Shown here: one piece after another, positions 19,413-33,370 of the stretch
Position numbering within the stretch: position 1 is the first letter of the stretch
How the letters are laid out: each line of letters opens with the position of its first letter
DNA from: Verrucomicrobiia bacterium
Lineage (GTDB): Bacteria > Verrucomicrobiota > Verrucomicrobiia > Verrucomicrobiales > Akkermansiaceae
Length of the DNA stretch: 64,000 bases
Assembly (NCBI GenBank): GCA_947462875.1
Contig: CANHQJ010000002.1
Coordinates: 248,001 to 312,000 of the forward strand
Direction of reading: 5' to 3'
Made by a program: the position numbers and the translations under genes
The notes under the pieces: generated by a model
What the model was told of the DNA's origin: nothing
Seen by the model: only the letters and a program-made list of their open reading frames with translations
Database searches by the model: none

Positions 19413-20645
19413 TCATTTGGGAGGGAAAAATGAATCCATGCGGTGCATGGCTTTCACACTCGCCGCATTGCTTTTGCTGATGCCGCACTCCTCGGCGATT
19501 CGCGGCCAATCCGCGATGCTATCCAGCACTCTTGCGATGATGGCCTCGGGCTCGCGAATCTCATGCTCTTTCGCCAAACGCATGAGATCCTTGCGAGTGA
19601 TGTCCGATGCTTTTCCCATGACGCGTCCGGCACGGAATCCGCCGGCGAGAGGGTAGCTGGCGCACGTGACGTCATAGGCAGGTGCCACGCTCCACACGCC
19701 CTCATCATCCATCAAAAACGCGTGATTGCGGCCATGATCATCATCGTTGGCGGCGAGGACATGGAAGACCGCGCGGCGGAACATTTCCTCAGCCGCATGC
19801 TGTTGTCCGGTGAGGGTGCGTGCCAGCGTGATGAGATCGCCGTATTCCAGACCATCGCGCAAGGGCGTATGGGTGAGTCCTGAATAGGAATGGAGATGCA
19901 AGCGATTTTGTTGCGCATCGCGATCGAATCGACGACTCACGAAATGCGCCACGCCATCACACTCTAACAAACTCGTTTCCGCCATGTGGATGCCTGCCAT
20001 CCGCGCCATTTGTGCGTAGGCGGCCTCGATCCTGGCCTCCTGGAGCACCGGTTCCATCTCGAACTTGATCAGCCAATGTCCATACTCCGGCGGCGCCTCG
20101 TCATCTAACGAAATATGGCGAAAATCGGGAGAGATTGCCAGCAATGCCTTGGGCTGGGCACCACCGGGCGACATGCCGTAGCGAATGAGCGAATCCAGCA
20201 CGGCAGTGGCTTCGCCGCGCATGATGCCTCTCGCCGCCTCCACGAGTTCACTGATTTCCAGAAACATCTGATCGGCGAACACATCGTCATCGAGGCTGGG
20301 CAAAAACTGCAAGGCGCCCATTTTTCTGGTTCCCTGACAGGCCAGCTTGCGCAGAGTGCTCACACGATTCCAGGGAATGCCGCGCTCTTCGAAAAACTTT
20401 TGCATCAATCGCTCGCCCCACCAGTCCGGCAAGGCATCCTGAAACAGCCCGTGAAGTTCGCCGAAATGCGGCGTGCTGCTGCGCACCGCCCCGCTCAGGG
20501 AGAGCGGCAGATACAGGGGCGAAAGCTCTCGTTGTCCGGCTTGCCATGCGGCATCGTATGCAAAAAAGATCGCGCCGCCCGCATCCTGAAACAGGCGGCC
20601 GATTCGTGACGGTTCATGGCCCGCCCATTGCACTTCCAGTTCCAT
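19413..20645 (-). CDS. hipA: HipA-family serine/threonine kinase toxin
   Basis: HipA toxins phosphorylate a host target (glutamyl-tRNA synthetase in E. coli HipA) and push cells into dormancy; HipB neutralises them. The 410-residue protein has the N-terminal HipA subdomain (LYLPLSL and HFGELHGLFQDALPDWWGERLM) and the kinase core, with GMSPGGAQPKALL as the glycine-rich loop, HWLIKFEM, VSRRFDRD, the catalytic loop ANDDDHGRNHAFL and the metal-binding APAYDVT. All key residues appear intact. The antitoxin gene lies 3 bases upstream. The target in this organism is unknown. This is a stand-alone full-length HipA, not a split HipS/HipT type. Confidence 0.9.
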   Translation of the reverse strand: MELEVQWAGHEPSRIGRLFQDAGGAIFFAYDAAWQAGQRELSPLYLPLSLSGAVRSSTPHFGELHGLFQDALPDWWGERLMQKFFEERGIPWNRVSTLRKLACQGTRKMGALQFLPSLDDDVFADQMFLEISELVEAARGIMRGEATAVLDSLIRYGMSPGGAQPKALLAISPDFRHISLDDEAPPEYGHWLIKFEMEPVLQEARIEAAYAQMARMAGIHMAETSLLECDGVAHFVSRRFDRDAQQNRLHLHSYSGLTHTPLRDGLEYGDLITLARTLTGQQHAAEEMFRRAVFHVLAANDDDHGRNHAFLMDDEGVWSVAPAYDVTCASYPLAGGFRAGRVMGKASDITRKDLMRLAKEHEIREPEAIIARVLDSIADWPRIAEECGISKSNAASVKAMHRMDSFFPPK

Positions 20646-20648
20646 CGG

Positions 20649-20987
20649 TTAGATTGTTTTGTGTGATCGGTTGTTCGTTTTTTTGCGCGGCGCGCGCTGG
20701 CGTTCGCTGCGTTTGATGGCCTCGATCGATTCCATCACCAGTGGTCGGGAAAACAACTCGCGCAGCTCGCCATCCACATCGAGAATCACCGCGACGCGCA
20801 CGAGCCGGAGAAAGGAGATCTGCCCTTTCGATTCGAGCAATTTCAGCGTGGAAAGCGCAATGCCCGCCCGCTTCGCAAGCTCCTCCTGCGTCCAGCCCTT
20901 GGCCAGACGAAACTTCCGCATCCGCCGCCCGATGTCCCGTGCGATGCTGACGGGATTCCGCTGCGTAAAAGTTGCTATTTTGTCCAC
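20649..20987 (-). CDS. hipB: HipB-like XRE-family antitoxin
   Basis: A 112-residue DNA-binding protein with a canonical XRE helix-turn-helix (IGRRMRKFRLAKGWTQEELAKRAGIALSTLKLLESKG, residues about 19-54). A FLRLVRVAVILDVDGELRELF helix pair follows, then a basic tail (SERQRAPRKKTNNRSHK). It should bind HipA and repress its own operon. The start is GTG. A pair of nested palindromes overlaps the promoter and the first codons. The predicted transcription start lies at or next to the start codon, so the operon mRNA may be leaderless. HipA follows 3 bases later. Confidence 0.88.
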   Translation of the reverse strand: MDKIATFTQRNPVSIARDIGRRMRKFRLAKGWTQEELAKRAGIALSTLKLLESKGQISFLRLVRVAVILDVDGELRELFSRPLVMESIEAIKRSERQRAPRKKTNNRSHKTI

Positions 20988-23651: not shown

Positions 23652-24554
23652 ATGAAGAAAGAACTGATGAAAAAAGTCCGCATGTTCACCGATCCCTTCC
23701 GGGTGACGAACGGGAAAAAATTCCGCCTGCGCGATTACGATCCGGCCGACACCTTGCACCTCGGCTCGGAGGACAAGCCCCGCGCCAAGGAGGGCCTTCA
23801 AATCGGCGTGCAGGCTCTGGCGGAATTGCAGGACGTGCTCTATGCCCAGGACAAGTGGGCGGTATTGCTCATTTTCCAGGCCATGGATGCCGCGGGCAAG
23901 GATGGCGCGATCAAGCACGTGATGTCCGGTGTGAATCCGCAAGGCTGCCAGGTGTATTCGTTCAAGGCGCCCACCAGCGATGATCTCGATCACGATTATC
24001 TCTGGCGCTGCATGAAATGCCTGCCGGAGCGCGGTCGCATCGGCATTTTCAATCGCAGCTACTACGAGGAAACGCTGGTGTGCCAGGTGCATCCGGAACT
24101 GTTGCAAAAACAAAAACTGCCGCCCGAACTCATCACCAAGCACATCTGGCAACAGCGCTACGAGGACATCAACGCCTTCGAGCGCTACCTCAGCCGCAAT
24201 GGCGTGATCGTGCGTAAATTTTTCCTCCATGTCTCGGAGGAGGAGCAGAAGAAACGCTTTTTGGAGCGGATCGACAACAAACAGAAAAACTGGAAATTAT
24301 CGTCCGCCGATGCCAAGGAACGCGCCTACTGGAAGGACTACATGAAGGCCTATGAGGAAACCATCCGGCATACCGGGACAAAGGAATCGCCCTGGTATGT
24401 GGTGCCTGCCGATAACAAATGGTTCACCCGGTTGGTCGTGGCGGCGGCGGTCATCGAGGCTCTGGACTCGCTCAATCTGCACTACCCCAAAGTCAGCGCT
24501 CAGCAGAAAGCCGAGCTTGCGGCCGTGAAAAAGGCTCTGACGGCAGATGACTGA
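23652..24554 (+). CDS. ppk2: Polyphosphate kinase 2 (PPK2) family
   Basis: PPK2 enzymes transfer phosphate between polyphosphate and nucleotides. The 300-residue protein has Walker A FQAMDAAGKDGAIKHV (residues 75-90), GCQVYSFKAPTSDDLDHDYLWR, Walker B-type RIGIFNRSYYEETLV and the lid segment FFLHVSEEEQKKRFLERI. The single PPK2 domain and the FNRSYYEE sequence are typical of class III enzymes that phosphorylate AMP and ADP; this subclass is inferred. It follows a hypothetical gene and precedes a SulP transporter gene. The Pst phosphate-uptake locus begins about 1.8 kb downstream, which fits a phosphate-storage context. Confidence 0.92.
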   Translation: MKKELMKKVRMFTDPFRVTNGKKFRLRDYDPADTLHLGSEDKPRAKEGLQIGVQALAELQDVLYAQDKWAVLLIFQAMDAAGKDGAIKHVMSGVNPQGCQVYSFKAPTSDDLDHDYLWRCMKCLPERGRIGIFNRSYYEETLVCQVHPELLQKQKLPPELITKHIWQQRYEDINAFERYLSRNGVIVRKFFLHVSEEEQKKRFLERIDNKQKNWKLSSADAKERAYWKDYMKAYEETIRHTGTKESPWYVVPADNKWFTRLVVAAAVIEALDSLNLHYPKVSAQQKAELAAVKKALTADD

Positions 24555-24561
24555 GCGCGCT

Positions 24562-26274
24562 ATGAAGAACCAGCGTCGCACCTCACCACTCATGAGAAAA
24601 CTCCAGCAATGGATTCCAGCGCTCGCCTGGCTCAGGACCTATCGCCTTGATTTCCTGCGGGCCGATGTGTTGGCTTCCATCACGTTGGCGGCCTACATGA
24701 TTCCCGCGGCCATAGGCGATGCCTCGCTGGCGGGCTTGCAGCCGGAGGCCGGGCTCTACGCCTGTCTTTTCGGCGGCTTGTTTTTTTGGTTGTTCAGCGC
24801 CTCACGGCACACGGCGATCACGGTCACGTCTGCCATTTCGCTGCTGGTCGGCGCCTCGCTGGGCCCCATGGCGGGCGGGGATCCCGTGCGATTTGCCGCG
24901 CTTGCCTCGCTTACGGCCTTGCTGGTGGCCATCATGGCGTTGATCGGCTGGCTGGTGAATGCCGGAACGATCGTGAACTTCGTTTCGGAATCGGTGCTCG
25001 ATGGCTGGAAAACGGGCGTGGCGTTGTATTTGGGCAGCACGCAGTTGCCCAAGCTCTTCGGATTCAGCGGTTCGCATGGCGATTTCTGGGAGCGCAGCGG
25101 ACACTTTTTTTCGCACCTTTCGCAAACAAACCATTACGCGCTGGCATTCGGCGTCGTGGCTTTGGCGGCATTGATCCTTGGGAAAAAATTTCTCAAACAC
25201 AAGCCGGTCGCGTTGTTTGTCGTCATCGGCGGCATCATCGCGGCGACGTTTCTCTCTGCCGAATCCCATGGCGTGAAAATTCTCGGCTCGGTGCCGCAGG
25301 GCTTGCCGTATCTGGGCATGACCCCGTTCACCCGCGAGGACATCAACGAACTGCTGCCACTGGCCTTCGCGTGTTTTCTGTTAGGCACGGTGGAGTCCGC
25401 CGCGATCGGCCGGATGTTTGCCAGCAAGCATCAGTATCGCTTCGAGGCGAATCAGGAATTGCTGGCACTGGCGGGTGCCAATCTCGGTGCCGCGCTGGGA
25501 CAGGGCTATCCGATCAGCGGCGGCATGTCGCAGTCGCTGGTCAATGAATCCGGCGGTGCCAAAACGCCACTATCGGGTTTTTTCGCGGCGCTCCTTTTGA
25601 TGATCGTCGTTCTCTTTCTCTCGCCATTGCTGGCCAATCTGCCGCAGTGCGTGCTGGCGGCGATCGTGCTGGTGGCCGTGGGCGGCTTGTTCAAGGCGAA
25701 ACAGCTCAAGCATTTGTGGCATGCCAGTCGACCGGAGTTTTTTGTGGCCGTCGCGGCGGCGCTGGGGGTGCTCGGTTCCGGCATGCTGCGTGGCGTCATG
25801 ATCGGTGCGGTTCTCTCGTTGGTTTTGATGATTCGCAAGGCCTCCCTGCCGCATGTCGCCCTGCTTGGTCGCATTCCTGGCACGAACCGCTTCAGTGATC
25901 TGGAACGGCACACGGACAATGAATCGATCGATCAGGTGATGATTTTCCGTCCGGAGGCCAGCCTGATCTATTTCAATATCGATCACGTCTGCACCTCCAT
26001 CCGCCATCGGGTCACCGATGCCGGTGACGCTGTCCGTCTGGTCATCATCGATCTTTCGGCGGCACCTATCGTGGACGTACAGGGAGCACGCGAGCTGGCG
26101 GATTTGGCCCACCAGCTCAGCACTAAAGGAAAAACCGTGCGGGTGGTCGAGGCTCTCGCCAGCGTGCGCGACCGCCTGCGCCTGGAAGGCGTGGATGCCC
26201 AACTGGGCGGCGTCAATCGCTTTACCACCATCGCAGAGGCTATTGCGGAGTTTCAGGCAGCTAACAAGGCCTGA
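24562..26274 (+). CDS. SulP-family anion transporter with STAS domain
   Basis: A 570-residue membrane protein. The SulP signatures are ADVLASITLAAYMIPAAIGDASLAGLQPEAGLYA near the N-terminus, QGYPISGGMSQSLVNESGGAKTPLSG in the core, and about a dozen hydrophobic segments. The C-terminal ~120 residues form a STAS domain (RLVIIDLSAAPIVDVQGARELADLA). SulP proteins carry sulfate, bicarbonate, molybdate or dicarboxylates, often by sodium or proton coupling; the substrate here is not predictable. The ATG at 24562 avoids overlap with the PPK2 gene; an ATG at 24547 would overlap it by eight bases. Confidence 0.92.
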   Translation: MKNQRRTSPLMRKLQQWIPALAWLRTYRLDFLRADVLASITLAAYMIPAAIGDASLAGLQPEAGLYACLFGGLFFWLFSASRHTAITVTSAISLLVGASLGPMAGGDPVRFAALASLTALLVAIMALIGWLVNAGTIVNFVSESVLDGWKTGVALYLGSTQLPKLFGFSGSHGDFWERSGHFFSHLSQTNHYALAFGVVALAALILGKKFLKHKPVALFVVIGGIIAATFLSAESHGVKILGSVPQGLPYLGMTPFTREDINELLPLAFACFLLGTVESAAIGRMFASKHQYRFEANQELLALAGANLGAALGQGYPISGGMSQSLVNESGGAKTPLSGFFAALLLMIVVLFLSPLLANLPQCVLAAIVLVAVGGLFKAKQLKHLWHASRPEFFVAVAAALGVLGSGMLRGVMIGAVLSLVLMIRKASLPHVALLGRIPGTNRFSDLERHTDNESIDQVMIFRPEASLIYFNIDHVCTSIRHRVTDAGDAVRLVIIDLSAAPIVDVQGARELADLAHQLSTKGKTVRVVEALASVRDRLRLEGVDAQLGGVNRFTTIAEAIAEFQAANKA

Positions 26275-26337: not shown

Positions 26338-26355
26338 TGTGACGAAATCGTCACA
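26338..26355. promoter_or_regulatory. Palindromic operator upstream of pstS (site 1)
   Basis: TGTGACGA-AA-TCGTCACA, a perfect 8-bp inverted repeat with a 2-base spacer, 50 bases upstream of the pstS start. The same arms recur upstream of pstC. It differs from the direct-repeat Pho box of enterobacteria, although each arm contains a GTCA core. Confidence 0.75.
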
Positions 26356-26404
26356 TTTCCTGATTCGCCCTCGACACAATTTTTTTACCAAACTCCGCCG
26401 TTCT

Positions 26405-27208
26405 ATGAAATCACTACTGACACTTCTGAGCGCCCTCACGGTCGCGAACTTCGCCCTGGCACAAAACATCAGCCTGAAGGGGAGCGATACCCTCGGAGCC
26501 AAGCTGATCCCGCAAATCGCCGAAAAATACAAAGCGGAAGGGCATGCCGATGCCAAGTTCGAGATCGCCGCAGAGGGATCCTCGACAGCGTTTCCGGCCC
26601 TCGCCAACGGCACGGCGGATATCGGCATGTCATCGCGCAAAGCCAAGGATGAGGAACTCACCGATTGCAAAACCAAGGGTGTGACGCTCGTGGAGCATGC
26701 GGTTTGCTTCGATATGCTGTGCGTGATCGTGAACAAAAATTCGCCCATCACGAACCTGACGAAAGCGCAAGTCGCGAAGATTTTCACGGGTCAAGTCAAG
26801 GACTGGTCGGAAGTCGGAGGCACTCCCGGACCGATCTCGATCTACACGCGCAATACTTCCTCCGGCACCTACAAAGACTGGCAGAAGCTGGCCATGGACG
26901 GCCGCGACTACCCCTCCAGTTCGCTGAAAATGGCGGGCAATGAGCAAATCGCCCAGGAAGTTGCCAAAAACAAGGGTGGCATCGGCTATGTCGGTCTCGC
27001 CTACTCGAAAACCCGCGGTGTGAAAGCCTTGCAAATCGACGGTATCGCTCCGGTGGCGGATAACAAAAAATCTTATTCCTACTCGCGCGAATGCTACCTT
27101 TACATCCCGGAAAATGCCAAACCGGAGGCCAAGGCGTTTGTGGACTTCGTGCATTCGCCTGCTGGCCAGGCACTGGTGGAAAGCACCGGCTTCATTCACG
27201 CAAAATAA
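26405..27208 (+). CDS. pstS: Phosphate ABC transporter substrate-binding protein PstS
   Basis: A periplasmic phosphate-binding protein of 267 residues with signal peptide MKSLLTLLSALTVANFALA. PstS/PBP-like motifs include KGSDTLGAKLIPQIAEKY, AEGSSTAFPALANGTADIGMSSR, KAQVAKIFTGQVKDWSEVGG, YTRNTSSGTYKDWQKL and GIGYVGLAYSKTRGVKAL. I placed the start at the ATG at 26405; an ATG at 26330 would put the signal peptide 25 residues in and include the palindrome. An intrinsic terminator follows, and pstC-A-B begin after a second copy of the palindrome. PstS can therefore be made in excess over the membrane parts, as is usual. Confidence 0.93.
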   Translation: MKSLLTLLSALTVANFALAQNISLKGSDTLGAKLIPQIAEKYKAEGHADAKFEIAAEGSSTAFPALANGTADIGMSSRKAKDEELTDCKTKGVTLVEHAVCFDMLCVIVNKNSPITNLTKAQVAKIFTGQVKDWSEVGGTPGPISIYTRNTSSGTYKDWQKLAMDGRDYPSSSLKMAGNEQIAQEVAKNKGGIGYVGLAYSKTRGVKALQIDGIAPVADNKKSYSYSRECYLYIPENAKPEAKAFVDFVHSPAGQALVESTGFIHAK

Positions 27209-27224
27209 TCATTGCTTCGTAGAG

Positions 27225-27258
27225 AACAGCGCCGATCCCATTCGGAGCTGTTTTTTTT
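27225..27258 (+). terminator. Terminator between pstS and pstC
   Basis: AACAGC-G-CCGA pairs with TCGG-A-GCTGTT (one mismatch, five- to six-base loop), followed by eight T residues. It lies 16 bases after the pstS stop. Confidence 0.85.
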
Positions 27259-27270
27259 GCTCGTCAAAGA

Positions 27271-27303
27271 TGTGACGATTTCGTCACATTCGCGCTTTAT
27301 TAT
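27271..27303 (+). promoter_or_regulatory. Palindromic operator (site 2) and -10 of the pstCAB promoter
   Basis: TGTGACGA-TT-TCGTCACA (27271-27288) has the same arms as site 1, with centre TT instead of AA. A further TCGTCA lies 20 bases before its second arm. A good -10 hexamer TATTAT (27298-27303) starts 9 bases after the palindrome, so the palindrome covers the -35 region, as expected for an OmpR/PhoB-type activator. Confidence 0.7.
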
Positions 27304-27377
27304 TCGATTGAGCATTTCCCAGCCGGCTCCTAGGCTGGATGTGCCCGCCGTTTTTCCCCAACATTGCCCGATTTTCC

Positions 27378-29279
27378 ATGTCTGTCGTCTCTTCTTCCGA
27401 GATCTCGCGTCCGCCAATCCAACGAAAGGGCTTTTCCTATGATCGCCTGATCCGGTATTTTTTCGCATCGAATGCCGGGCTCACGATCGTCATCCTCCTG
27501 CTCATCATCGCGTTCTTGCTGAAAGAAGGTCTGGGATTCTTTCCGGGATACCGACGGGAGTTGGAAATTTACCGGATCACGGGCATGGAGTTCGTCGATC
27601 TCTCCCGCACCAATCTTACGTCGCACGAGCAGCTGACTTCTCTGCTCAACCGCGCCTATTTCGCCGAGATCAATGGCCAGGCCGACCGCGAATTGAAGCG
27701 CTCGACGGAAGCGGCGGCACTGGTCGCGGACATTGATGATTTCACCGCCAGCGTGCGCGATTCGTACTTTTCCGCCACGGAGGAAGCCGCGCCGGCCGCG
27801 GAGGTGATCGCGCGGTTGAAGGCGCAGTATGCTGCGCTTTTGTCCCTGGCGATCAAGGATCTGCCGCCCAGCCCGCACCTCACGGAAGAGGAGCGAAAGG
27901 GGATCATCGATGCCATGATGCAGCGTCCCATCGACAATGAGGATACGCCGGAATTCGTCACAAAGCTGGCCGGCGAATACGCGACGGCCCGTCAGAAATT
28001 TGCCGCGCCCCTCGAAGAAGCGCGCACGCGCATCGATGCCTTTGAAGCCGCGGGCAGTGAGCTGAACTCGTTGGTGGGTGAAATGACCTCCCTGGTGAGA
28101 GTCTCGAAAGACGCGCTCAACAAGTCGGACATTCTCGAACGCGAACGCAAGAGTTTGTTAGCCGCCGCCGCGTCCGCGAAAGATCCGGCCACGCGCGAGC
28201 GACTGCAGCAGGAGGCGAAAACCGCTCTCGCCGAGGTGCCGGACATCCGTGAGACCACCGAGAAGGTGTTGGCGAAAAAGTCCCAATGCAGTGAGGCCCA
28301 TCAAAAGCTCCATCAATCCATCACCGGGCTCACAGCGCAACTGACGTTTTCCTATCAGCAAGCCGAGTCCGTAAAACTCCAGCGCGCGGCCCTCGCCGCC
28401 ATGCCGGCTTTCCTGAAGGAACTCGAAGCGGCTCCGGCAAAAATCGAGGCGTGGAATGCCGCGGAACCGGTACACCTCTCGGCAGCGATCCACTCGTTTC
28501 TAACGGGGAAATCCTGGGTCACCGGCGGCGAATGGCAGGACTTTTACGGCATCCTGCCGCTGCTCACCGGTTCGCTGATGATCGCGATCGTCGCGCTGCT
28601 GATCGCCATTCCCGTGGGCATTGGTGCGGCGATCTATACGAACCAATTCGCCAGCCTGCGGGAACAAAAACTGATCAAGCCCATCATCGAGTTCATCCAG
28701 GCGATTCCTTCGGTCGTGCTCGGATTCATCGGTATTTTCATCCTCGGCGAGGCGCTGCGCACGCTCTCGACCAGTCCCGCGCTCGCGTGGTTCCCTGGTT
28801 TCCCCATGGACGAGCGGCTCAATATTTTCACCGCCGGCTGCCTGCTGGCGCTGATGAGCATACCGACGATTTTTTCTCTCGCCGAGGATGCGATCAACAA
28901 CGTGCCCGCGGCCTACTCGGAGGCCTCCGAGGCACTGGGGGCCTCGAAACTCCAAACCACTTTCCGCGTGGTGGTGCCTGCCGCGTTTTCGGGCATTCTG
29001 GCGGCGGTTCTGTTAGGATTCGGTCGCGTGATCGGCGAGACGATGGTGGTGCTGCTGGTCGCCGGAAATCGCATCAAGATTCCCGACTTCAGCGCGGGCG
29101 TGGGAGCTTTTTTCCAACCCGCCCATACCATGACGGGCATCATCGCCCAGGAACTCGGCGAGGTCCCCGTGGGCAGCGTGCATTACCGCGCCTTGTTCGT
29201 CGTCGGCATCCTGCTGTTCGCGATCGTCCTGGGCATCAATGCCACGGCGCACCATTTCACCCGGAAAATGAAACACTGA
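27378..29279 (+). CDS. pstC: Phosphate ABC transporter permease PstC with large extracytoplasmic insertion
   Basis: The C-terminal 240 residues are a normal PstC permease (LLTGSLMIAIVALLIAIPVG, FIQAIPSVVLGFIGIFILGE, SEALGASKLQTTFRVVVPAA with the EAA-type loop, GRVIGETMVVLLVAG). The first transmembrane helix (AGLTIVILLLIIAFLLKEGLG) is separated from the second by about 330 residues of charged, helical sequence (for example ALNKSDILERERKSLLAAAA, SQCSEAHQKLHQSITG), where ordinary PstC has a few dozen. This part should lie outside the cytoplasmic membrane, perhaps as a sensor or docking domain. Start at ATG 27378; an ATG at 27339 would add 13 residues. pstA follows one base later. Confidence 0.92.
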   Translation: MSVVSSSEISRPPIQRKGFSYDRLIRYFFASNAGLTIVILLLIIAFLLKEGLGFFPGYRRELEIYRITGMEFVDLSRTNLTSHEQLTSLLNRAYFAEINGQADRELKRSTEAAALVADIDDFTASVRDSYFSATEEAAPAAEVIARLKAQYAALLSLAIKDLPPSPHLTEEERKGIIDAMMQRPIDNEDTPEFVTKLAGEYATARQKFAAPLEEARTRIDAFEAAGSELNSLVGEMTSLVRVSKDALNKSDILERERKSLLAAAASAKDPATRERLQQEAKTALAEVPDIRETTEKVLAKKSQCSEAHQKLHQSITGLTAQLTFSYQQAESVKLQRAALAAMPAFLKELEAAPAKIEAWNAAEPVHLSAAIHSFLTGKSWVTGGEWQDFYGILPLLTGSLMIAIVALLIAIPVGIGAAIYTNQFASLREQKLIKPIIEFIQAIPSVVLGFIGIFILGEALRTLSTSPALAWFPGFPMDERLNIFTAGCLLALMSIPTIFSLAEDAINNVPAAYSEASEALGASKLQTTFRVVVPAAFSGILAAVLLGFGRVIGETMVVLLVAGNRIKIPDFSAGVGAFFQPAHTMTGIIAQELGEVPVGSVHYRALFVVGILLFAIVLGINATAHHFTRKMKH

Positions 29280-29280
29280 C

Positions 29281-30408
29281 ATGATTTCAGAAGAAACTCT
29301 CATTCGCAAAGGCACACCGAAGGGCAAAGGTCTCGATCTGGGGATCCGCACCATGTTTGCCGGGCTCACCTATCTGATTTTGTTCGTCGCGGTGCTGCTT
29401 TTCTGCAAAATCTGTTGGGATGGCGCGCCTACCCTTTTCAGCACGAAGGCTCCCTTTGTGAATGTCTCGTTCCTGCTCGATAAGAACCAGACGCTTCACG
29501 TCTTCGATAACCCGCAAGGGGAGCGCCTGCAGCTTCCGGCATCGGAATACATGGCTTACGTCAAAACCAACGGCGAGGCATCGGTGTTCAATCATCAGAG
29601 TTTTTCCTATTCGGGCGGCGGCATCATCGGCCCCATCGTCGGCACGCTGCTGCTGACGGTTGGCTCTATCATCATCGCCTTGTTTTTCGGTGTCAGCGCG
29701 GCGATATATCTATCGGAATACGCCAAGGACAGCCCATTCATTCACGTGGTGCGGCTGGCCATCCTGAACCTGGCAGGTGTGCCTTCCATCGTCTTCGGCC
29801 TCTTCGGCTTTTCGGTGTTCGTGTTGGCGGTGCCCATCATCACCGATGAGCCCTCCAGTCGCTCATTGTTCACGTTGCCCTTGTTCGCGAGCGACTATGT
29901 CATCAGTTTCCAGGGCTGGAATTCTTCTCTCATGGCTGGCTGCGCGACGCTGGCCTGCATGATCCTGCCGGTGATCATCACCGCCTCGGAGGAGTCGCTG
30001 AAGTCGGTGCCGCAAGGCTTTCGCGATGCCTCCCTGGCGCTCGGAGCCACGCGTTGGCAGACCATACGCCGCAGCGTGCTACCCTTTTCTCTGCCGGGCA
30101 TTCTCACTTCGTCCTTGCTGGCGATCACCCGCGTGGCGGGTGAAACGGCACCCATCATGTTCACCGCGGCGGTGGCCGCAAAGGATGATTTGCCCTGGGA
30201 AGGCATGTCGAATCCTCTGGACATTCTTTCCTCGCAGGTGCAGGCCTTGCCCTATCACATTTACACTCTCGCCGCCCGCATCCCGAACTCCGAATACACG
30301 CAGCGCGCCCAGTACGGCTCGGTGTTCGTGTTCCTCCTCCTGGTCGCGCTGATGTCTTTCAGTTCGATGTACTTGCGCGCCAAGGTGCGTGCCAAGCTCA
30401 AATGGTAA
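29281..30408 (+). CDS. pstA: Phosphate ABC transporter permease PstA
   Basis: The partner permease of PstC. Typical PstA blocks are [85 protein letters not shown] (EAA loop) and [14 protein letters not shown]. Like PstC it has an extra extracytoplasmic stretch of about 60 residues after the first helix ([20 protein letters not shown] onward), giving 375 residues against roughly 280-300 in common homologues. The ATG follows the pstC stop by one base, so the two are translationally linked. pstB comes 13 bases after the stop. Confidence 0.94.
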
Positions 30409-30421
30409 ACAGCCGCTTTTC

Positions 30422-31180
30422 ATGAATTCCGCCATTCAAATTGAACACCTCGATTTTTGCTACGGTGCCAAGCAGGCGCTGTTTGATGTGTCGATGGAGA
30501 TTCCCGCCCTGCAAGTGACCGCGTTGATCGGTCCCTCCGGCTGTGGCAAGTCAACGTTGCTGCGTTGCTTCAATCGTATCAACGACCGCATCGCCGGCGC
30601 CCGCGTGACGGGTGGCTCGATCAGGATCCATGACATCGACATCATGCGCCCCGATATCGATCTGTTGGAACTGCGCCGTCACGTCGGCATGGTGTTTCAG
30701 AAATACAATCCCTTCGCCAAGTCGATCTACGAAAATGTCGCCTACAGCTCGCGCATCGCCGGGATCAAGGACAAGGCGCGGCTGGATGAAATCGTGGAAA
30801 GTTCCTTGCGCGACGCCGCGCTGTGGGACGAGGTGAAGGATCGGGTGCACGATAGCGCCTTCGGCCTGTCCGGCGGACAACAGCAACGCCTCTGCATCGC
30901 CCGTGCGATTGCGAACCGCCCGGAAATTTTGCTGATGGATGAACCCTGCGCCGCCCTTGACCCGTTGGCCACTCTGAAAATCGAGGAGCTGATCCAGCAG
31001 TTGAAAAAACAATTCACCATCGTGATTGTCACCCACAACATGGCGCAGGCGAGCCGCTGCTCCGACAAAACGGCCTTCATGTATCTCGGGAAATTGATCG
31101 AGTTTGACGATACCAAAAAGATTTTCACCAATCCCCGGGAAAAACAGACCGAGCAATACATCACTGGCAGCTTCGGTTGA
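30422..31180 (+). CDS. pstB: Phosphate ABC transporter ATP-binding protein PstB
   Basis: The ATPase of the Pst transporter, 252 residues. Walker [11 protein letters not shown]-loop [18 protein letters not shown], signature [16 protein letters not shown], Walker [14 protein letters not shown] and the H-loop [12 protein letters not shown] are all intact; the NPF after the Q-loop and the MAQA are PstB-specific. An in-frame ATG at 30389 lies inside pstA and gives a non-conserved N-terminus, so the ATG at 30422 is used. No phoU follows; instead a two-component system begins 70 bases later. Confidence 0.96.
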
Positions 31181-31250: not shown

Positions 31251-31946
31251 ATGAAAATTCTGATCATTGAAGACGAAGTCAAGATTGCGACGGCGATTCG
31301 CGATTGCCTCGCTTCGGCATCGTATCAGGCCGATGTGGCGCACACGGGAAACGGGGGAATCGCATTTCTCACGGAGCGGAAATACGATGCCGTCATTCTG
31401 GATTGGATGCTGCCGGGCTGCGATGGCATCGGGGTGCTGCAATGGCTGCGCCATCGCGGGGCGAAGCCGCCGGTGCTTTTGCTCACCGCGAAAGATTCGG
31501 TGGAAGATCGCGTGACGGGGCTGGATAGCGGCGCGGATGATTACCTCGTGAAACCTTTCGCCTTTGCCGAGCTGCTTGCGAGGCTGCGCGCCCTCACGCG
31601 TCGCACCGCCGCCGTGGATCCCTTTCAATTGCAAACCGCCGACCTCATTCTCGATCTCAACACGCGCTGGGCCAGCCGTGCGAAAGCGGAGATCATCCTC
31701 ACCCCTCGCGAATTCGATCTGCTTGCCTTCATGCTTCGCCACAAGGGAGATATTGTTTCGCGCGGCATGATCGCGCAGGAGGTGTGGCGGGAGACGAACC
31801 GCTCGACACCGCTCGACAACGTCATCGATGTGCACATCGCGCGCCTGCGCCGCAAGGTGGACAGCGGCCATGCCACCCGCCTGATTCACACCGTGCGCGG
31901 TGTCGGATTTTTCTGCGGCGAATCCTCACCCACCGTGCCGTCATGA
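31251..31946 (+). CDS. OmpR-family response regulator next to pst genes
   Basis: A 231-residue response regulator with a receiver domain (IIEDE acid pocket, phosphoacceptor Asp51 in VILDWMLPG, TAK switch Thr/Lys) and an OmpR/PhoB winged-helix DNA-binding domain (ILTPREFDLLAFMLRHKGDI, NVIDVHIARLRRKVD, IHTVRGVGFF). The sequence style (RKYDAVILDWMLPGCDGI, RLIHTVRGVGF) is closer to CusR/CopR-type regulators than to classic PhoB. Position right after pstB makes it the best candidate in the window to act at the two palindromes. Its stop overlaps the kinase start (ATGA). An ATG at 31221 is an alternative start. Confidence 0.9.
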   Translation: MKILIIEDEVKIATAIRDCLASASYQADVAHTGNGGIAFLTERKYDAVILDWMLPGCDGIGVLQWLRHRGAKPPVLLLTAKDSVEDRVTGLDSGADDYLVKPFAFAELLARLRALTRRTAAVDPFQLQTADLILDLNTRWASRAKAEIILTPREFDLLAFMLRHKGDIVSRGMIAQEVWRETNRSTPLDNVIDVHIARLRRKVDSGHATRLIHTVRGVGFFCGESSPTVPS

Positions 31947-33370
31947 GTCATCAAAATTCGTCAGAAAAACCGGCATCACGGCTCTCGGCGTGGTGGCAGC
32001 GGCAAAGTTTGCGCCTGCGTTTCGCCGTCTCGTTTTCCCTCGTCACCACCCTCATCCTGCTGACATTGCTGCCCTTTGTCTATCAACTCATTCGCGGGCA
32101 AATGACGGCCGATATTGACCGGCAGCTGCGCATCGACTGGGCGCTCATCGAGGCGCACTTGGAGAGCGATGGCAACAGCGGCATCCAGTGGCGCAAAAGC
32201 AGCCCCGCCACACCGCAGAGCCCGGGCTATGCGAACAGCTGGTTCGATGTTTGGGATCGCGATCGATCTCTCCTGACGCACTGGCCCGAGCATGGTGCCG
32301 CGGCCTTGCAGCCACCACCGCCGATTGCCGGGCAGGGACACTTCGTTTCCGTTCCGCTGAGCGATGGCCGCCCCGCCAGAACCTATCAGATGAACTCCGT
32401 CATCGACGCGCAGCCCTTCATGCTGCGCGTCTTCCGCGATGAATCCGCGCATCGCGCCACCCTGCGGCGCATCGTCCTCGGCCTGAGCCTCGGCATGCCC
32501 ATCGCCGTGCTGCTCGCCGCCTGGGGCGGTCACGCCATGGCCGGGCGCGCGCTGCGTCCCGTCGGCGACATGGCCGCCGCCGCGCGGCGCATCACCTCGG
32601 ATTCGTTAGGCAGCCGCTTGCCGAATCCGAACCCGCACGACGAACTCGGCCAACTCGCCACCGTGCTCAACGATACGCTGCATCGACTGGAGTCATCGTT
32701 CGATGCCCTCAAGCGTTTCACCGCCGATGCCTCGCACGAGCTCCGCACCCCGCTCACCGCCTTGCGCAGCGTGGGCGAGGCATCCCTGCGCGAAGCCAAG
32801 TCGCCCGAGGAGCTGCGCGAAACCATAGGCAGCATGTTGGAGGAAGCCCAGCGCCTGCACGACCTAGCCGACACCTTGTTGCTGCTCGCCCGCGCCGGCA
32901 GCGGACGCATGCCCGTGCAGCGCGAAACCTTTTCCCTCGACTCGCTGGCCCGCGATGCCTGTGAGCGTTTGGAAGTGCTGGCTGCGGAAAAAAACCAACG
33001 CATCGAGATCACCGTCGCGCCTGACATTTCCCTGCTCGCCGATCCCGTTTTGCTGCGCCAAGCTTTCACCAATCTCCTTCACAACGCCATCCGCTACAGC
33101 CCGACGGATTCCCTGATCCGCGTGACAGCGGGCAAGCGCGACGGAGGGATTTTCATCGAAATCACCGACCAAGGCCCCGGCATCCCGGAAGAGCATCGGC
33201 AAAAAATCTTCGATCGCTTCCATCGCATCGACAAAGCCCGCTCGCGGGCCGATGGCGGCACCGGCCTCGGCCTCGCCATCGCGAAACTTTTCGTCGAACA
33301 ACACGGTGGCCGTATCGAACTCGATTGCCCTTCGAATGGCGGCAGCACCTTCCGCATTGTCCTGCCATAG
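31943..33370 (+). CDS. Sensor histidine kinase paired with the pst-linked regulator
   Basis: A 475-residue membrane kinase: transmembrane helix 1 at about 27-50, a periplasmic domain of about 125 residues, transmembrane helix 2 at about 176-195, HAMP (197-255), HisKA with His265 in ADASHELRTPLTALRS, and HATPase motifs NLLHNAIRYSP (N box), DQGPGIPEEHR (G1), FDRFHR (F box) and GGTGLGLAIAK (G2). Two helices with a periplasmic loop and HAMP is CusS-type. PhoR kinases usually have a PAS domain and little periplasmic part, so this may sense an external signal or PstS/PstC state directly. Translationally coupled to the regulator. Confidence 0.92.
   Translation: MSHQNSSEKPASRLSAWWQRQSLRLRFAVSFSLVTTLILLTLLPFVYQLIRGQMTADIDRQLRIDWALIEAHLESDGNSGIQWRKSSPATPQSPGYANSWFDVWDRDRSLLTHWPEHGAAALQPPPPIAGQGHFVSVPLSDGRPARTYQMNSVIDAQPFMLRVFRDESAHRATLRRIVLGLSLGMPIAVLLAAWGGHAMAGRALRPVGDMAAAARRITSDSLGSRLPNPNPHDELGQLATVLNDTLHRLESSFDALKRFTADASHELRTPLTALRSVGEASLREAKSPEELRETIGSMLEEAQRLHDLADTLLLLARAGSGRMPVQRETFSLDSLARDACERLEVLAAEKNQRIEITVAPDISLLADPVLLRQAFTNLLHNAIRYSPTDSLIRVTAGKRDGGIFIEITDQGPGIPEEHRQKIFDRFHRIDKARSRADGGTGLGLAIAKLFVEQHGGRIELDCPSNGGSTFRIVLP

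Follow-up and report, generated by a model that had tools for sequence, protein, structure and literature searches.

An inverted-repeat operator upstream of pstS and pstC as a probable Pho box of the order Verrucomicrobiales

The E. coli Pho box consists of tandem direct repeats and replaces the -35 element, with the -10 element about 10 bp downstream. The excerpts of PMC3960148 and PMC4832192 describe PhoB on tandem repeats and present most or all known sites of the family as direct repeats. Exceptions appear in excerpts of three further papers, on RegX3 (PMC7525159), HP1043 (PMC8345958) and CmrR (PMC12548384). HP1043 of Helicobacter pylori, for which a head-to-head model is given (PMC8345958), and CmrR of Clostridioides difficile, which has an inverted-repeat site (PMC12548384), belong to the same family as PhoB, but they are atypical or unrelated regulators with other recognition sequences and do not control phosphate regulons. 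A related described system is RegX3 of Mycobacterium tuberculosis, a phosphate-responsive OmpR/PhoB-family regulator whose operator is an inverted repeat with GTGA arms; however, the excerpt gives GTGAAC arms with 5-7 bp between them (PMC7525159), whereas the site described here reads GTGAC-N6-GTCAC, and RegX3 belongs to another lineage while the regulator here is of PhoB type. Among 60 upstream regions that we compared, GTGAAC was found only in the left arm of phoB sites from one genus (g3). The GlnR motif of Streptomyces, given as GTnAC-n6-GTnAC in the part of PMC3087709 consulted, has an identical spacing and half-site skeleton, but GlnR is a nitrogen regulator and the middle base is free there, while it is mostly G and then C here.

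The window, i.e., the whole stretch of DNA analyzed, covers 64,000 nucleotides (G000:C2:248001-312000) of the 3.95-Mb genome of a Verrucomicrobiales bacterium, probably a member of Akkermansiaceae. The following features are considered, with coordinates counted within the window.

26338-26355, no strand: predicted Pho operator 1, TGTGACGA-AA-TCGTCACA, 49 bp upstream of the pstS start codon
26364-26391, plus strand: tentative pstS promoter, TTCGCC (26364-26369), 16 bp, TACCAA (26386-26391)
26405-27208, plus strand: pstS, phosphate-binding protein (TIGR02136 at 210.2 bits, exceeding the cut-off of 206.6; PF12849)
27221-27256, plus strand: intrinsic terminator in the pstS-pstC gap (fold -19.7 kcal/mol, z -4.66), followed by T's
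27271-27288, no strand: predicted Pho operator 2, TGTGACGA-TT-TCGTCACA, upstream of pstC and after the terminator
27308-27336, plus strand: probable pstC promoter, TTGAGC (27308-27313), 17 bp, TAGGCT (27331-27336)
27378-29279, plus strand: pstC (TIGR02138 at 235.2 bits, above cut-off)
29281-30408, plus strand: pstA, named by reading and position
30389-31180, plus strand: pstB copy 1, open reading frame as listed and named by reading, with the true start probably downstream
31251-31946, plus strand: response regulator of heavy-metal type (best family match TIGR01387)

The initial annotation had reported twin palindromes with identical arms beside pstS and pstC and a terminator between the two genes, and both observations hold. 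The first site reads TGTGACGAAATCGTCACA and the second TGTGACGATTTCGTCACA; each is a perfect 8+8 palindrome, and the two are mutual reverse complements. They are the only matches in the window at up to three mismatches, both with none, while shuffled sequences gave a mean of 0.38 at the same threshold. The terminator hairpin was missed by a simple terminator scan and became apparent from its fold energy and z-score. PstC is roughly double its normal size: the PstC model matches no more than residues 383-644 in a reading frame of 646 residues, so the protein has a long extra N-terminal part. Polyphosphate-kinase-2-like and SulP-transporter-like genes (by reading) lie just 5' of pstS on the same strand (23652-26274). 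Further upstream, a HipA-like gene is preceded by a small helix-turn-helix gene (19413-20987, by reading); the two may form a toxin-antitoxin pair of the hipBA type.

The whole genome holds three perfect copies of the palindrome, and five copies at up to one mismatch as compared to none for a reversed control pattern. The perfect copies precede pstS, pstC and a gene for a glycosyltransferase-metallophosphoesterase fusion, the latter at 61 bp. This gene (L054:1266-3197, G000:C2:91265-93196) encodes 643 residues with a GT4 glycosyltransferase and a calcineurin-like phosphoesterase part, and resembles the Agt/PlcP lipid-remodeling pair merged into a single protein. The Agt and PlcP activities together replace phospholipids during phosphate starvation. 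One copy with a single mismatch lies upstream of a second pstB, the first gene of a pstB2-phoU-phoB-phoR cluster, and on the 12-base pattern TGTGAC-N6-GTCACA a site with one mismatch precedes a porin of the phosphate-selective OprO/P family. PlcP in Verrucomicrobia is mentioned in the excerpt of PMC4796936. A degenerate copy, TGAAACGAATTTGTCACA, with two mismatches on the 12-base pattern, is located 32 bp upstream of the genome's own phoB. At up to two mismatches the 12-base pattern occurs 83 times in the genome, barely above the 60 of the control, and the weak sites are therefore mostly due to chance. Two sites 78 bp apart (G000:C2:165937-165954 and 166015-166032) precede a TonB-dependent-receptor-like gene, and a site matching 12 of 12 bases (G000:C14:20165-20182) precedes pseudopilin-like genes; both sets of genes are possible further members of the regulon.

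Within the family, 31 of 97 genomes carry a copy at up to one mismatch, and the reversed control was found in none. Among 30 loci from relatives (one per genome), 16 sites are upstream of phosphate genes, namely five Na/Pi cotransporters, three phoB, three pstB2, two glycosyltransferase-PlcP genes, and one each of pstS, pstC and a porin, the last with a divergent pstS-like gene alongside. Six of these 16 assignments were checked with Pfam and the remainder made by reading. The other 14 loci have neighbors without a recognizable phosphate link or without an assignment, and some of these sites lie inside open reading frames. For the order, a protein search of 112 genomes gave a phoB match in 103 and a pstS match in 43, and the regions upstream of 30 genes of each kind were fetched as loci and scanned for TGTGAC-N6-GTCACA. 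At up to two mismatches, the pattern was present upstream of 27/30 phoB genes (five without mismatch; shuffles 0.6) and 27/30 pstS genes (15 without mismatch; shuffles 0.7). It was found at the same threshold in 28 of 40 further phoB upstream regions; the 12 lacking it include divergent members of genus g3 (L239-L242). L239-L241 (G084, G136, G002) form a divergent PhoB-like group without an operator upstream at up to four mismatches, and in an alignment without L241, the VWGY that usually precedes the recognition helix is replaced by LLGY in both L239 and L240. Outside the order but within the class, a site preceded two of the 20 phoB-like genes scanned, and both sites were of the direct type on inspection.

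Motif discovery by expectation maximization without symmetry constraint gave TGTGACGAATTCGTCACA from 58 phoB upstream regions and TGTGACGCTTTCGTCACA from 29 pstS upstream regions, near-duplicates having been removed from both sets. The pattern was counted 733 times in the 103 genomes with a phoB match, compared to 372 for the control, and showed no excess in the nine genomes without one (21 against 24), a set that is small, related and not phylogenetically independent. G143 has four matches at up to one mismatch, of which the one at phoB precedes a Pho gene and the other three are in or beside unrelated genes. A separate case is L285 (G028:C1:1807300-1809700), where TGTGAAAAAGTCGTCACA lies upstream of a periplasmic binding protein, phosphonate-type by reading; the same site is found in G164 and G178. 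Collectively, the shuffles, the reversed control and the counts for genome, family and order rule out a chance origin of the palindromes. Random scatter of the motif over the genome, which the initial annotation had named as grounds for abandoning its idea of a phosphate operator, did not occur, and the genome-wide and comparative searches it had proposed place the site ahead of phoB, pstS and further phosphate genes far beyond this genome. TGTGAC-N6-GTCACA is thus very probably the Pho operator of the order Verrucomicrobiales, read by PhoB, as judged from sequence comparison.

The resemblance to the E. coli Pho box is partial. Both sites are found upstream of phosphate-starvation genes including phoB, and both consist of two half-sites 11 bp apart, but the halves are direct repeats in E. 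coli and inverted here (GTGAC..GTCAC). Since a change of the middle base alone turns GTGAC into GTCAC, and the two lie 11 bp apart, the palindrome could also be read as a direct repeat whose middle base is free, and the orientation search was therefore carried out with the middle bases masked. Distinct sites upstream of Verrucomicrobiales phoB then had G..C in 36/56 cases and equal middle bases in 6/56, and those upstream of pstS had G..C in 15/19 and equal bases in 0/19. In sister orders, one of nine sites at up to two mismatches was complementary and seven were equal (shuffles gave 8), and in other phyla none of 19 was complementary and 11 were equal (shuffles gave 9). Both of these sets are small, with counts close to those of the shuffles, so the contrast relies mainly on the strong result for Verrucomicrobiales. 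The direct reading for sister orders relies on good matches (L200, L206, L208, L210, L211, L213, L216) and not on number, and motif discovery in 20 sister-order phoB upstream regions gave a weak result. As read from the DNA, the operator code of Verrucomicrobiales is inverted, whereas sister orders and other phyla appear to have mostly direct repeats.

How PhoB is seated on the site is a separate matter from its role as a Pho operator. The protein may bind head-to-tail as in E. coli, on an ordinary direct Pho box of TGTNAC halves in which a free middle base happens to be G on the left and C on the right; this agrees with the 11-bp distance between half-sites, with the period-11 self-correlation of the two discovered motifs (0.66 and 0.55), and with the few direct phoB sites within the order. 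However, the palindromic self-correlation of the same motifs is higher (0.85 and 0.71), the masked middle bases are predominantly G..C and seldom equal, and the symmetry extends to the outer T/A and inner R/Y positions, although the 71 sites showing this were chosen with the palindrome and are biased towards it. We regard head-to-tail seating as a serious possibility that nevertheless falls somewhat short of an even chance. The alternative, to which we do give an even chance, is that the Pho operator flipped from direct to inverted in the Verrucomicrobiales line within an unchanged 11-bp frame, that PhoB there would bind as a head-to-head, two-fold symmetric dimer, and that its recognition helix changed from TVDTHxRRLR to TLDTHxKRLR at the same split, with sister orders still direct. 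For the code itself, the initial annotation had proposed something other than a Pho box. The inverted halves are indeed unlike the E. coli direct repeats, but the 11-bp Pho-box frame is kept and sister orders have direct repeats in that same frame, so the site does not lie outside the Pho-box scheme altogether. Inverted sites in the OmpR/PhoB family were already known; what is new here is a Pho box in which one of the halves is reversed, a form kept through most of the order. No account of this operator in Verrucomicrobia was found in the open-licence PMC literature, and none of the matches listed there contained exact TGTGAC-N6-GTCACA strings; they had either GlnR-type GTNAC-N6-GTNAC or only TGTGACGA.

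The most suitable regulator in the genome is its own PhoB (G000:C5:119326-120021), encoded next to pstB2, phoU and the gene of a PhoR-like kinase. It scores 224 bits on the PhoB model (TIGR02154), which is below the curated cut-off of 296.2 but the best of the seven regulators matching. It is of the same regulator type as E. coli PhoB, and the recognition helices of the two can be aligned. Across 62 Verrucomicrobiales proteins this helix is mostly TLDTHxKRLR, and position 203 is lysine in 62/62 of them and arginine in 17/17 sister-order proteins. Lysine 203 was considered as an explanation for the inverted code and rejected: a myxococcal PhoB (L120) has lysine together with a direct-type site, thus lysine is not sufficient, and SAR86 proteins also have it. 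The residue is at most a mark of the lineage.

Two other regulators have to be weighed against PhoB. The initial annotation had put forward the response regulator at 31251-31946 as the candidate binder, and its position adjoining the pst genes speaks for it. However, its best match is TIGR01387 (223.6 bits, cut-off 279.2) and it reaches 174.1 bits on the PhoB model, on which the PhoB encoded elsewhere in the genome scores better; the neighboring kinase matches TIGR01386, and the operator recurs upstream of phoB genes across the order. We therefore dropped it as main candidate, being of heavy-metal type by best family match, and consider it very improbable that it is the specific regulator of the palindromes. 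The two-component pair to which it belongs (31251-33370) directly follows pstB, and both best matches, TIGR01387 and TIGR01386, are below cut-off. Binding by a CRP/FNR-type regulator would account for the TGTGA and TCACA halves, which resemble the CRP consensus. CRP operators have the spacing TGTGA-N6-TCACA, whereas the spacing here is N8, and in an offset scan the partner half peaked at 11 bp (58 of 102 GTCAC anchors had it at -11, with a median of 1 across offsets). A CRP-type site was rejected on this spacing. The position of the site upstream of phoB itself and other phosphate genes, and the absence of enrichment in genomes that lack a phoB match, likewise leave a CRP/FNR-type regulator hardly any probability.

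The promoter layout appears to differ from that of E. coli in that a -35-like TTTTG is conserved downstream of the operator. Over 71 distinct sites, the TTTTG block is found 8-12 bp past the operator, with an A/T-rich block (ATAAT) at 33-37 bp. The two blocks suggest that a -35 element is present downstream of the operator, and their placement fits an operator center about 54 bp before the transcription start. The tentative pstS promoter was placed with this order-wide logo, to which it is a weak match. At pstC in this genus, the predicted -35 begins 20 bp after operator 2, one helical turn further than in the usual layout, and an arrangement of operator, 19 bp, TTG[AT]G[CG], 16-17 bp and TAGNCT is shared (by eye) with the pstC promoters of three relatives (L266, L267, L270). 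The TATTAT proposed earlier as the pstC -10 element is present at 27298-27303, nine bases past site 2, but it is not conserved in these three relatives and is therefore probably not the -10; it occupies the place of the -35 in other promoters. A pstC start at 27378 is favored over 27339 because the latter is located at or before the predicted transcription start, and pstC of L270 begins at the place equivalent to 27378.

Taken together, it is highly likely that the palindromes serve this bacterium as Pho operators and are bound by phosphorylated PhoB under phosphate starvation. Starvation would lead to phosphorylated PhoB (G000:C5:119326-120021) binding both palindromes. PhoB would then activate from a position immediately 5' of a retained -35, in the order operator, 7-10 bp, TTTTG, about 20 bp, ATAAT, while at pstC it would sit one turn further up from the -35. 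Twin pstS/pstC operators are also found in two congeners (L266, L267); their recurrence and the terminator suggest that the binding protein and the transporter are induced separately, and the two operators would allow this for pstS and pstC-pstA-pstB across the terminator.

The order Verrucomicrobiales includes the gut genus Akkermansia, and our results give this order a predicted phosphate regulon whose operator can be searched for. They also point to a natural experiment, in which one regulator family in sister orders would use direct or inverted sites, so that the determinants of head-to-tail and head-to-head binding might be testable through a few residues or half-sites.
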